From Sulfurimonas sp. SAG-AH-194-L11 (lineage in GTDB: Bacteria > Campylobacterota > Campylobacteria > Campylobacterales > Sulfurimonadaceae), in the NCBI RefSeq assembly GCF_029215995.1, contig NZ_JAEMVB010000001.1, forward strand, positions 1 through 64,000: DNA of 64,000 nucleotides, in the 5' to 3' direction. Shown here one piece after another: positions 6,852 through 14,713 of the stretch. The translations under genes were made by a program, and so were the position numbers. Every line of letters begins with the position of its first letter. Positions within the stretch are counted from its first letter, which is position 1. The notes under the pieces were generated by a model that had not been told where the DNA came from, searched no databases, and saw only the letters and a program-made list of their open reading frames with translations.

Positions 6852-8237
6852 ATGGTTGTTACTCGTTTTGCTCCCTCTCCTACTGGATACTTACATATAG
6901 GTGGTCTTAGAACCGCTCTTTTTTCTTACCTTTGGGCTAAAAATCAAGGCGGAAAGTTTGTACTTCGTATAGAAGATACTGATAAGGCTCGTAACTCAGA
7001 GGAAGCGACTCAGGCAATTTTAAAAGCTTTTGAGTGGTTAGGACTTGCGGCTGATGGTGAGATTACATACCAGAGTCAACGCAGTGAGATTTATGCAAAG
7101 TATATCAAGCAACTTTTAGATGAGGGCAAAGCTTACAAGTGCTACATGAGTAAAGAAGAGCTCACAGAGCTTCGTGAAACACAGATGGCAAACAAAGAGC
7201 GTACAATGTACGATGGTCGTTACCGTGACTTTAATGGTACTCCTCCTGAGGGTGTCGCGCCTGTTATCCGTATAAAAAGTCCTAAAACAGGAGAGATTCT
7301 TGTAAAAGATGGCGTTAAAGGGACTATTAGTTTTCAAGCTGAAGATATCTTAGATGACTTTGTTATAGCTAGAGCTGATGGTGCTCCAACTTACAACTTT
7401 GTTGTGGCGATAGATGATCACCTTATGGGGATAAATGAAGTTATCCGTGGAGATGATCACCTCTCTAACACACCAAAACAGATAGTAGTCTATGAGGCTT
7501 TAGGTTTTGATATCCCTGCATTTTATCATGTTCCTATGATTCACAACTCTAAAGGAAAAAAACTCTCTAAACGCGATGGTGCTACTGATGTTATGGCTTA
7601 TAAAGAGATGGGGTACACGCCACAAGCGCTCCTTAATTTTCTTGTGCGTTTAGGCTGGAGTCATGGTGATCAAGAGATATTTTCAATGGATGAGATGATA
7701 GAGCTTTTTAATCCAAAAGACATTAACAAGTCAGCAAGTATCTACAATACTGAAAAACTTGACTGGTTAAATGCTCACTATATTAAAAACACTTCAAATG
7801 ATGCACTTGCAGAACTTTTAGAAGATTATGGTATTCACCTCTCTTCACATGATAAAAAAGAGATCTTACTTGATGCACTTAAAGAGAGAGCTAAAACACT
7901 CAAAGAGTTAGCAAGTTTGATAACTGAGATACTAACAACTCCAAGCGAGTATGAAGCTAAAGCTGTTAAAAAAGCCTTTAAAGATGGGGCATTTGAAGTG
8001 CTAGAAGCTTACAGTGAAAAACTAAAGCTAAATGAGCCTCACCTACCAACAGACTACCATGCACTTATGGAAGAAGTTGTAAGTGAAATGGAAATTGGAT
8101 TTGGAAAAATCGGAATGCCACTGCGTGTTGCACTACTGGGAAAGATGGGTGGACCAAATATAGATGTCATTATGGCTGTGATTGGCAAAGAAGAGACACT
8201 CTCAAGAATACAACAGGCAATAACAAAAAACTCTTAA
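6852..8237 (+). CDS. gltX: glutamyl-tRNA synthetase, GltX1-like
   Basis: Class I synthetase charging tRNA-Glu. The HIGH-type motif is PSPTGYLHIGG (residues 9-19) and the KMSKS-type motif is KLSKR near residue 237. The C-terminal anticodon-binding region is complete (461 residues). Campylobacterota usually carry two paralogues, one charging tRNA-Glu and one misacylating tRNA-Gln. The N-terminal segment through CYMSKEEL reads most like GltX1 of Helicobacter, but this assignment is from memory of the family. It stands alone between pldA (divergent) and a diguanylate cyclase gene. Confidence 0.92.
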   Translation: MVVTRFAPSPTGYLHIGGLRTALFSYLWAKNQGGKFVLRIEDTDKARNSEEATQAILKAFEWLGLAADGEITYQSQRSEIYAKYIKQLLDEGKAYKCYMSKEELTELRETQMANKERTMYDGRYRDFNGTPPEGVAPVIRIKSPKTGEILVKDGVKGTISFQAEDILDDFVIARADGAPTYNFVVAIDDHLMGINEVIRGDDHLSNTPKQIVVYEALGFDIPAFYHVPMIHNSKGKKLSKRDGATDVMAYKEMGYTPQALLNFLVRLGWSHGDQEIFSMDEMIELFNPKDINKSASIYNTEKLDWLNAHYIKNTSNDALAELLEDYGIHLSSHDKKEILLDALKERAKTLKELASLITEILTTPSEYEAKAVKKAFKDGAFEVLEAYSEKLKLNEPHLPTDYHALMEEVVSEMEIGFGKIGMPLRVALLGKMGGPNIDVIMAVIGKEETLSRIQQAITKNS

Positions 8238-11743: not shown

Positions 11744-12238
11744 GTGTTTCAAAAAAAGCTTGAGTTTGCCTTTGTAAGTCTCATCCTTATAGCAACTACA
11801 GTACTTATCTACAACTACTATAACTCTTACACTTTTAAGCACTCTCCCCTGCCTAAGAGCTATCTTCAAGAAATAGCACTTAAAGAAAAAGAAGTGCTCA
11901 AAAATATGCAAAGAAATTTCGGTTTTTCACAAAAATTTGAACTTATCATTACAGATGATATCCCAGGACGACTGTATGGTCTTACCTCTTATGACAAAGG
12001 TCTTATCAAAATCTATCTTAACAAAAAGGTGATGCAGGAGAGTTTTAAGTATATAATAGAGAGTGTTATAGCCCATGAATATGCTCATGCTTTGATGTTC
12101 AAGCTTTCTCGTGACACAAAAGAAAAAGCGGGTCACTCAGATGAATGGAAAAGAACTTGTCAGTTACTAGGAGGCAAAGATTGTCGTCAGTATGTAAACC
12201 AACGTGAGATTATCATCTCTAAAATGCCTTTTCAGTAG
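11744..12238 (+). CDS. membrane-anchored SprT-like zinc metalloprotease
   Basis: A 164-residue protein starting at GTG. It has one N-terminal membrane helix (FAFVSLILIATTVLIYNYY) and then a compact metalloprotease domain. The zinc-binding HEYAH motif is at residues 111-115, with a downstream AGHSDEWKRTC segment that supplies the third ligand in SprT-type proteins. Usual SprT/Spartan relatives are cytosolic and DNA-linked. The membrane anchor here implies that the domain faces the periplasm. The ribosome site is weak, so the start is uncertain by a few codons. Confidence 0.65.
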   Translation: MFQKKLEFAFVSLILIATTVLIYNYYNSYTFKHSPLPKSYLQEIALKEKEVLKNMQRNFGFSQKFELIITDDIPGRLYGLTSYDKGLIKIYLNKKVMQESFKYIIESVIAHEYAHALMFKLSRDTKEKAGHSDEWKRTCQLLGGKDCRQYVNQREIIISKMPFQ

Positions 12239-12272: not shown

Positions 12273-12302
12273 ATAAAAGTGGAGATTCATTCACAGGGGT
12301 GT
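12273..12302 (+). repeat. RAYT-associated repeat, copy R1
   Basis: A 30-nt unit, ATAAAAGTGGAGATTCATTC followed by ACAGGGGTGT. It is identical to the reverse complement of R2 and R3 and near-identical to R4 at the transposase 3' end. The inner GTGGA-GATTCA-TTCAC can form a short hairpin with one G-T pair. It is followed at once by a 12-bp tandem duplication (AGGGGTGTTTCT twice, 12295-12318). Confidence 0.85.
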
Positions 12303-12455
12303 TTCTAGGGGTGTTTCTCCGCTTATTTGATAGAGAAAAAGGATTGATTGCAAAACAGTTTTTAAGTTTAATGGCTGTTCCCGTAAGACAATCAGATGCT
12401 TTCCACCATTAATGCGAACATCGCCGTTGGAAGAGTTGATTAGTTCTATACAATT
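12291..12455 (-). pseudogene. C-terminal remnant of an unidentified gene
   Basis: On the minus strand, 54 sense codons run from just after a TAG (12456-12458) to a TGA inside repeat R1, without a plausible start. The translation (for example GDVRINGGKHLIVLREQPLN) looks like genuine protein, with a mixed hydrophobic/charged pattern unlike most shadow ORFs here. I do not recognise the family. The last few codons (ETPLETPL) come from the repeat and its 12-bp duplication, so the repeat appears to have replaced or capped the original 3' end. Confidence 0.35.
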
Positions 12456-12502
12456 CTAAGATGAGAGAAGTCATCCCCCATCTTACTTACTTTTAGAAAA
12501 GT

Positions 12503-12706
12503 TTAGTCGTTTACAATTTTCTTGATTTCTTCTTTAATACTTGCAATATCTTGCTTACTCAGAGTGGAACCTTCTTGTGAAATTTTATAAGGTATACGTG
12601 CTGAGTATTTAACTTTAGAACCTTCTCTATATGGAAAAACTTCTATATGTAGTGGTATATACTGGTCTTTTATAGTTAATTTAAATGTGCTCTGTTTTTT
12701 AAACAT
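12503..12706 (-). CDS. 67-aa hypothetical protein inside a repeat-bounded segment
   Basis: Unrecognised small protein of 67 residues from the ATG at 12706. The track start at 12751 would encode the N-terminus entirely from the 41-bp tandem repeat, so I prefer the inner ATG. AGGGG from repeat R2 lies about 7 nt upstream and could serve as its ribosome site. The sequence mixes beta-like (FKLTIKDQYIPLHIEVFPYR) and helical (LSKQDIASIKEEIKKIV) parts and could be a folded domain. R1 and R2 flank it in inverted orientation. Confidence 0.4.
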   Translation of the reverse strand: MFKKQSTFKLTIKDQYIPLHIEVFPYREGSKVKYSARIPYKISQEGSTLSKQDIASIKEEIKKIVND

Positions 12707-12782
12707 ACACCCCTGTGAATGAATCTCCACTTTTATGATATAAACATACACCCCTGTGAATGAATCTCCACTTTTATGATAT
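12701..12782 (-). repeat. RAYT-associated repeats R2 and R3: perfect 41-bp tandem duplication
   Basis: Two perfect 41-bp units (12701-12741 and 12742-12782) directly repeated. Each contains the 30-nt core in minus orientation (12707-12736 and 12748-12777). R3 lies about 30 nt upstream of the transposase start, so the array also forms its leader. The duplication covers the putative start region of the small minus-strand ORF. Confidence 0.9.
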
Positions 12783-13593
12783 AATTACCTACATTAAAAT
12801 ATGAGGATTTTAGATGCCTACGAGATTGAGAGTTGATATTGCTGGTTATCATCACATTATCAACCGTGGTGTAAATCGCTGTGATATTTTCAATACTGAC
12901 AGCGATAAAGATACATTTTTAAGTATTTTAAATAAAAGTGCATTATTGCATAAAGTAGTAGTGCATGACTACTGTTTGATGGATAATCACTACCATTTAG
13001 TTATAGAAACTTCACAAGAGAATTTATCTGCATTTATGAGAATTGTAAACGCCAACTATGCAAAGTTTTTTAACAAAACCTATAAACGCAGTGGTCATCT
13101 TTGGCAAGATAGATATAAGTCTAAGTACATTACCTCGGAGGATTATCTCTACACACTTATAAAATACATTGAGCACAATCCTCTTGAAGCCAAGCTCGCA
13201 GATAAGGTCACCCACTATCCATATACACTAGCGCATCAGGTTTTTAATGGACAATCATACTATACTTGTTGCGAAGAATCACTCTTGCTTAAAGAGTTTG
13301 ATGCCACGACTCTTAGTGAGTTTTTAGATGCACCTATTTCTAAAAAAGAGTTACAATACTTACAAACAAAAGAGAAACAGAAAATACTTAAAGTAGATAA
13401 TGGCGTTACAGTATTGCAATCAAAAGAGCTAAAGAGACATTTTTGTGACTTTACTTCAAAGCAAGAAAGAAATATGTCAATACTCAATGCTTATCATGAT
13501 GGATATTCGCAAGCAAGTATTGCAAATTATCTTAAGCTTTCAAAATCATTGATTAGTAAGATTATAAAAAGTGGAGATTCACTCACAGGGGTA
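12748..13593 (+). mobile_element. RAYT unit bounded by inverted copies R3 and R4
   Basis: The transposase gene is enclosed by R3 (minus orientation, 12748-12777) and the variant R4 (plus orientation, 13563-13593). No target-site duplication is evident and the ends are repeat-like rather than IS termini, so this is a REP/RAYT-type locus. Whether it still moves cannot be judged from one window. Confidence 0.6.
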
Positions 13594-13602
13594 GTAAAAT
13601 AA
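12814..13602 (+). CDS. REP-associated tyrosine transposase (RAYT, Y1 family)
   Basis: Single-strand DNA transposase of the Y1/HUH type. The start MPTRLRVDIAGYHHIINRGV is the RAYT hallmark. The HUH motif is DNHYHLVIE (His59, His61), and the helix with YIEHNPLEA carries the region of the expected catalytic tyrosine. A C-terminal HTH-like segment (YSQASIANYLKLSKSLISKI) probably contributes to DNA recognition. At 262 residues it appears intact. Its last 13 codons are a variant of the repeat (R4) and its stop overlaps the RNase H start by 1 nt (TAATG). It belongs to a domesticated, repeat-tending class rather than a classical IS. Confidence 0.88.
   Translation: MPTRLRVDIAGYHHIINRGVNRCDIFNTDSDKDTFLSILNKSALLHKVVVHDYCLMDNHYHLVIETSQENLSAFMRIVNANYAKFFNKTYKRSGHLWQDRYKSKYITSEDYLYTLIKYIEHNPLEAKLADKVTHYPYTLAHQVFNGQSYYTCCEESLLLKEFDATTLSEFLDAPISKKELQYLQTKEKQKILKVDNGVTVLQSKELKRHFCDFTSKQERNMSILNAYHDGYSQASIANYLKLSKSLISKIIKSGDSLTGVVK
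13563..13593 (+). repeat. RAYT-associated repeat, variant copy R4
   Basis: ATAAAAAGTGGAGATTCACT followed by CACAGGGGTAG differs from R1 by one inserted A, one T-to-C change and a changed end. It encodes IIKSGDSLTGVV at the transposase C-terminus. Its AGGGG lies about 11 nt before the RNase H ATG and could contribute to ribosome binding. Confidence 0.8.
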
Positions 13603-14422: not shown

Positions 14423-14713
14423 ATGATGCACGAAGATGATTTTGAAGAAGACATAGAACCTACTTGGCTCACAAAACAAAAAGAGGATGCTCTTCTCACT
14501 GAGAAAGCTTATCTAAAAAATGAAAAAATCCTCTACAAAGAGGGTGACCAACTTGGGAACTTTTTATTTGTTCGCTATAACAAGGCTAAAAACAGAGCTA
14601 CATTTTTGTGTCAAGAGTGTGGAAGAAAGTTTACTTATAATATCTATGCTATTAAGAACAAAAAACGGTGTAAATGGGTGAAGTTTCATGATAAAAGTAT
14701 CAAGAAACTTTAA
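14423..14713 (+). CDS. hypothetical protein with a zinc-ribbon-like CxxC
   Basis: Unrecognised 96-residue protein. An acidic N-terminus (EDDFEEDIEPTWL) precedes a compact basic part with FLCQECGRKFTYN and a later KKRC, which could form a three- or four-ligand zinc site. It lies 8 nt after the RNase H gene, likely in the same transcript, which fits a nucleic-acid-binding role but does not show it. Two adjacent ATG codons (14423, 14426) are possible starts. Confidence 0.6.
   Translation: MMHEDDFEEDIEPTWLTKQKEDALLTEKAYLKNEKILYKEGDQLGNFLFVRYNKAKNRATFLCQECGRKFTYNIYAIKNKKRCKWVKFHDKSIKKL

Follow-up and report, generated by a model that had tools for sequence, protein, structure and literature searches.

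A probable TIRYT-type transposon with reiterated ends in a Sulfurimonas genome

The transposase gene and its flanking repeats

We analysed a window of 64,000 nt from Sulfurimonas sp. SAG-AH-194-L11 (contig NZ_JAEMVB010000001.1, positions 1 to 64,000), in which a gene for a Y1 transposase related to the repetitive extragenic palindromic (REP)-associated tyrosine transposases (RAYTs) lies among copies of a short repeat. The first-pass annotation had placed a 30-nt unit at four positions, and all four were found again: the 30-mer is exact at 12273 (+), 12707 (-) and 12748 (-), and a 25/26 variant occupies 13567-13592 (+). With up to three mismatches allowed, the window gave these 4 matches against 0 in 100 dinucleotide shuffles. 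Both minus-strand copies are held in a perfect 41-nt tandem duplication (12700-12740/12741-12781). Judged from repeat orientation, there is one complete element only at the locus, consisting of a left terminal inverted repeat (TIR), the transposase gene and a right TIR, with arms that are 25/26 identical. The parts of the element are:

12700..12781, minus strand: left TIR, two tandem units of 41 nt, with cores at 12709-12734 and 12750-12775
12814..13602, plus strand: RAYT/TIRYT-type Y1 transposase, 262 aa (open reading frame (ORF), Pfam, alignment and structural model)
13567..13592, plus strand: right TIR, in frame within the transposase gene (residues 252-260, KSGDSLTGV)

The transposase ORF is real and lies where it was first placed. 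Pfam Y1_Tnp matched the 262-aa protein over the family cut-off (E=1.2e-13), and a profile search showed this to be the sole Y1_Tnp match in the own genome, an assembly of 72 contigs that is 79% complete and to whose contigs our statements on copy number are limited. The HUH motif (NHYH) is at residues 58-61 and the catalytic tyrosine is Y118. In an alignment of 43 sequences Y118 was invariant, H59 and H61 were kept in 43/43 and 42/43, and motifs of the NH[YF]H, WQ and YIELNP type were found. An AlphaFold2 model (mean predicted local distance difference test score 87) had as its best structure match the REP-associated tyrosine transposase 4er8 (E=4.7e-7, prob 1.00), followed by the IS200/IS605 transposases ISDra2 and IS608; a phmmer search of the single transposase sequence against solved structures gave no match. 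A helix-turn-helix (HTH) lies at the C-terminus (~216-256; model helices 216-228, 233-240 and 244-256), where the match to HTH_38 scored under the Pfam cut-off.

The TIR consists of AAAAGTGGAGATTCAYTCACAGGGGT plus an outer heptamer with the consensus GTAATTT. We put its total length at ~33 bp because, in the copies of a related Sulfurimonas genome (G126), the flanks diverge past GTAGTTT on the right or G[TC]AATTT on the left. In relatives the minus copy is typically 40-160 nt ahead of the start and the plus copy is at or over the gene end. In the lineage with GGGGT-type TIRs the right TIR is in frame and codes for the last residues of the transposase; the right end encodes KSGDSLTGV in the window, and SGYSITGV, SAYSITGA or NGDVAPGV in relatives with other TIRs.

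To see how the ends relate to each other, the upstream arms at 43 loci were scored against the downstream arms of their own locus and of the other loci. The inverted-match score of the own arm pair was >=16 in 34/43 loci (own-pair median 24), whilst cross-locus pairs had a median of 10-11 unless the proteins exceeded ~60-70% identity. Random pairings reached the own-pair mean in 0/10,000 permutations. As own arms match and cross-lineage arms differ, arms and enzyme diversify together.

Some ends are also reiterated. GGGG[TC] recurred <=45 nt outward in 19/121 distinct TIR copies, compared with a rate of 2.6% in random stretches (Fisher p=3e-9), and in 18/19 of these the repeated unit kept the same site-specific following bases (GTTTCT, TATAGG, GAAGTC, GTATTTC etc.). 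The reiterated units share a common outer boundary and vary in their inner extent. Two reiterations are in the window, the 41-nt tandem at the left end and a 12-nt one after an orphan TIR (see below). When all TIR types were put through a conservative test the excess was small (8 reiterated ends against 2.2 expected), and end reiteration is claimed firmly for the GGGGT type only.

Dispersed copies in Sulfurimonas and a fixed relative in Sulfurospirillum

G126 holds at least five near-identical copies of the element at different sites. Across five right-end junctions the 104-nt inner sequence was 102-104/104 identical, with differing flanks, and several contigs break within the element, as is expected of a repeated sequence. 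Internally deleted copies that keep both TIRs measured 522 bp (in G126), 541 and 555 bp, short inverted TIR pairs of 171-191 bp were present in relatives, and element loci vary from species to species. By these near-identical copies at several sites, the sequences suggest that the element is mobile in Sulfurimonas. Target duplication was sought at 32 loci, where the best direct repeat at the ends was no different from shuffled pairings (p=0.69).

The spread of the repeat beyond this locus, which the first-pass annotation wanted counted both in the own genome and in relatives, was borne out for the relatives: the own genome has 4 copies, all at this locus, whilst 71/135 Sulfurimonas genomes carry the repeat, with up to 23 copies, and control patterns gave 0 in all Sulfurimonas genomes except one. 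The proposed tie between repeat and transposase lineage also held, the repeat being present in 17/20 genomes that have a close transposase, intact or as remains, compared with 54/115 others (Fisher p=0.0016). Since those 54 carry it without a close transposase, many TIR copies outlive the gene. When phages and plasmids were searched for close relatives of the transposase, none was found to be carried there.

The same TIR also trails unrelated recurrent inner sequences (gcattcccaNcg...cgtgggaacgag; gggagcgctagggcgagaaagagcaacagggttgta) at L105:210-360, L158, L159, L154, L157 and L163, which suggests non-autonomous families. In one genome (G102, L168:967-1661) a 0.7-kb array holds five TIR copies, all on the plus strand, with whole TIR-ending segments repeated. 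Beside some relatives' TIRYT elements or their flanks there is an attC-like (integron) sequence (L044:2122-2190; L268:1829-1893 and 7624-7688; L269:1698-1760), the likeness being similarity to one 69-nt query; cassette arrays may carry TIRYT elements between species.

In Sulfurospirillum, a related gene with a CCCTGACCCC-type TIR lies directly before gyrA. It was at this place in 19/20 loci examined (L282-L290, L292-L301) and had an intact 251-aa frame in 18. Its arms change together, with CTCTGACC on both sides in one species and CTCCGACC on both sides in two; own arms had 0.42 mismatches compared with 1.09 across species (p=0.0001). Dispersed TIR copies were found at 2-16 per Sulfurospirillum genome, with no control matches. 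This gyrA-upstream TIRYT is a domesticated counterpart. As Sulfurimonas copies are at different sites and the Sulfurospirillum gene is kept before gyrA, one family has both mobile and site-fixed forms.

The insertion site and the neighbouring gene fragment

In four relatives (G163, G162, G010 and G140) the PNPOx gene runs straight into the RNase H gene, with an overlap at TAATG, and the orthologous site in the window's relatives is without the element. In the window the two genes are 1.86 kb apart, and the insert holds, besides the element, an SprT-like gene, an orphan TIR, a remnant and a gene fragment. The right end of the element adjoins the RNase H start: the transposase stop TAA (13600-13602) sits past the right TIR, overlaps the RNase H ATG and is the TAA of the TAATG junction. 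The first-pass annotation had raised comparison with an empty locus in sister strains; a clean empty site for the single element was not found. The other features of the patch are:

12275..12318, plus strand: orphan TIR with its outer end rightward (AAAAGTGGAGATTCATTCACAGGGGT), from the repeat search
12295-12306 and 12307-12318, plus strand: 12-nt direct reiteration of the outermost part of the orphan TIR (AGGGGTGTTTCT)
12303..12426, no strand: non-conserved remnant between orphan TIR and gene fragment, from comparison with relatives
12427..12704, minus strand: 3' fragment of a 277-aa lipoprotein-like gene, including a 67-aa ORF (98% identity to the intact gene of G162)

The first-pass annotation had treated the first repeat pair (12275+/12709-) as bounding a segment of its own, with the 67-aa ORF as a possible passenger. 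In the elements of this family the GGGGT side of a TIR points outward; the GGGGT sides of these two copies face each other, which places the DNA between them outside any element. The ORF is a real open frame, and as a candidate passenger gene it had only weak matches (36-40%) in one other genus before it was seen to be part of a truncated 277-aa gene. Over 278 bp the fragment matches the 3' end of this gene, intact in G162 (L194:2699-3532), at 98% identity, compared with ~79-89% for other genes common to the window and G162. The homology ends at the start of the left TIR and so independently places the left outer end ~7 nt beyond GGGGT. For the remnant (12303..12426), relatives were sought and none found.

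The SprT-like gene (window 11744-12238) lies between PNPOx and the repeat patch. In other Sulfurimonas it adjoins a 96-aa gene, whose window counterpart is at 14423-14713; the copy of the nearest relatives is located elsewhere and is only ~57% identical.

Interpretation and relation to known systems

We consider it probable (roughly 0.86) that the repeats form the ends of a small TIR-bounded Y1/HUH transposon, a TIRtron/TIRYT of TnpA-Y1 subclass 2.1. Several points weigh against this assignment or against the mobility that goes with it. The protein scored 66.8 bits against a cut-off of 80 for NCBIfam NF047646 (REP_Tyr_transpos, a REP-associated transposase equivalog). The element is single copy in its own, incomplete genome assembly, and most TIR-bearing Sulfurimonas genomes are without an intact close transposase. 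We found no matching empty and occupied sites, with both flanks intact, for a single element; a search for clean empty sites with five joined element flanks across the genus gave single-flank matches only, never contiguous ones. The locus is a composite, since its insert also carries the SprT-like gene and further pieces.

The first-pass annotation had read the repeats as REP or REPIN sequences with a 5-bp hairpin and the locus as their generator, a REPtron. It is true that the transposase is a RAYT relative, that the repeat contains GTGG and that relatives show dispersed and paired inverted copies. However, fold energies were no better than those of shuffles (z = -0.3 and -0.7 on the two strands, -0.5 to +0.4 in other TIR variants), which largely refutes the proposal: six TIR variants or strands showed no hairpin beyond shuffles, and since neither strand nor other lineages fold better, the repeat is a TIR and not a REP. 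GTAG is also absent, GTGG comes without a stem-loop, the repeats are matched TIRs right at the gene ends that overlap its 3' end, and no dispersed copies were seen in the own genome, within an assembly that is 79% complete. We hold a REPtron to be highly improbable. It is also very unlikely, in our view, that the locus is a domesticated, immobile one, in which a host function preserves the gene with its TIRs and other copies are relics. In the literature tnpAREP is usually single copy with no evidence that it moves, and RAYT-type transposases are generally presented as single-copy, domesticated genes that show no sign of mobility (PMC8266576); the TIR-flanked gene of Sulfurospirillum, with its TIRs co-changing, keeps its pre-gyrA place in 19/20 loci. 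Against this stand the multiple copies of G126 at different sites, the differences in loci between Sulfurimonas species, and the relatives of the window without an element at the orthologous site.

As a TIRYT, the element would be a transposon of ~0.9 kb, with a Y1/HUH gene between two TIRs and a right TIR that doubles as coding end. The transposase may act on single-stranded element DNA, the two TIRs annealing into one stem, or could alternatively bind the TIRs as duplex through its C-terminal HTH. Y118 would cleave just outside the heptamer, and the DNA would be rejoined elsewhere without target duplication. Reiterated ends could arise as by-products when cleavage and joining recur at the shared outer boundary, or through slippage there. 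In the window, the element lies next to an orphan TIR and to a gene fragment that was captured, and splits the direct PNPOx/RNase H junction of relatives. More broadly, and tentatively, TIRYTs may be self-mobile HUH transposons that recognise an annealed-TIR stem (or duplex TIR through the HTH) and not hairpins, whose reiterated ends mark the cleavage point, and whose mobile forms (Sulfurimonas) coexist in one phylum with fixed, domesticated ones (Sulfurospirillum, before gyrA).

TIRtrons/TIRYTs were described by Di Nocera et al. (2013; PMC3733652). With that account the window family shares a RAYT-like Y1 transposase flanked by long TIRs that bear no relation to REPs, a TIR that may overlap the gene end, and TIR dimers, clusters and small dispersed families. 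There, some TIRs share GGGGWSAS, a motif common to some TIRYT members, not all, and not strictly defining; the window TIR, which ends ACCCCTGTGA when read inward, lacks it, and relatives with GGGGTCAG have it. Quentin et al. (2018) provisionally equate TnpA-Y1 subclass 2.1 with these TIRYTs (PMC6006769, PMC3733652). Shared with the subclass (PMC6006769) are the NH[YF]H, WQ and YIExNP motifs, the extra C-terminal HTH, prevalence in epsilonproteobacteria and no REPs nearby; it was described as being without insertion-sequence features (PMC6006769), in contrast to the clear TIR-bounded elements here. REPtrons (E. coli TnpAREP; 4er8) have the same catalytic fold and active site, whereas the window family has TIRs in place of GTAG hairpins, an added HTH domain and a protein-coding right end. 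With IS200/IS605 (IS608, ISDra2) Y1 HUH chemistry would be expected to be shared, as is the lack of detected target duplication; the window element differs in having no subterminal hairpins, near-perfect inverted ends and a longer protein.

The window element is a further TIRtron/TIRYT, of a class already known, in which the mobility evidence and the end structure are informative. What it adds to the available part of the published TIRtron account (PMC3733652) is the near-identical elements in several copies, the ends that change together and the reiteration of ends. The family offers defined ends and boundaries, near-identical copies and a vertically kept counterpart whose ends co-change, and it makes two questions testable: whether the enzymes are still able to move themselves, and what replaces the REP hairpin as their target. 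With copies at several places in the genome of one related species and a single fixed position in a different genus, it also provides a case for studying how such elements become tame.
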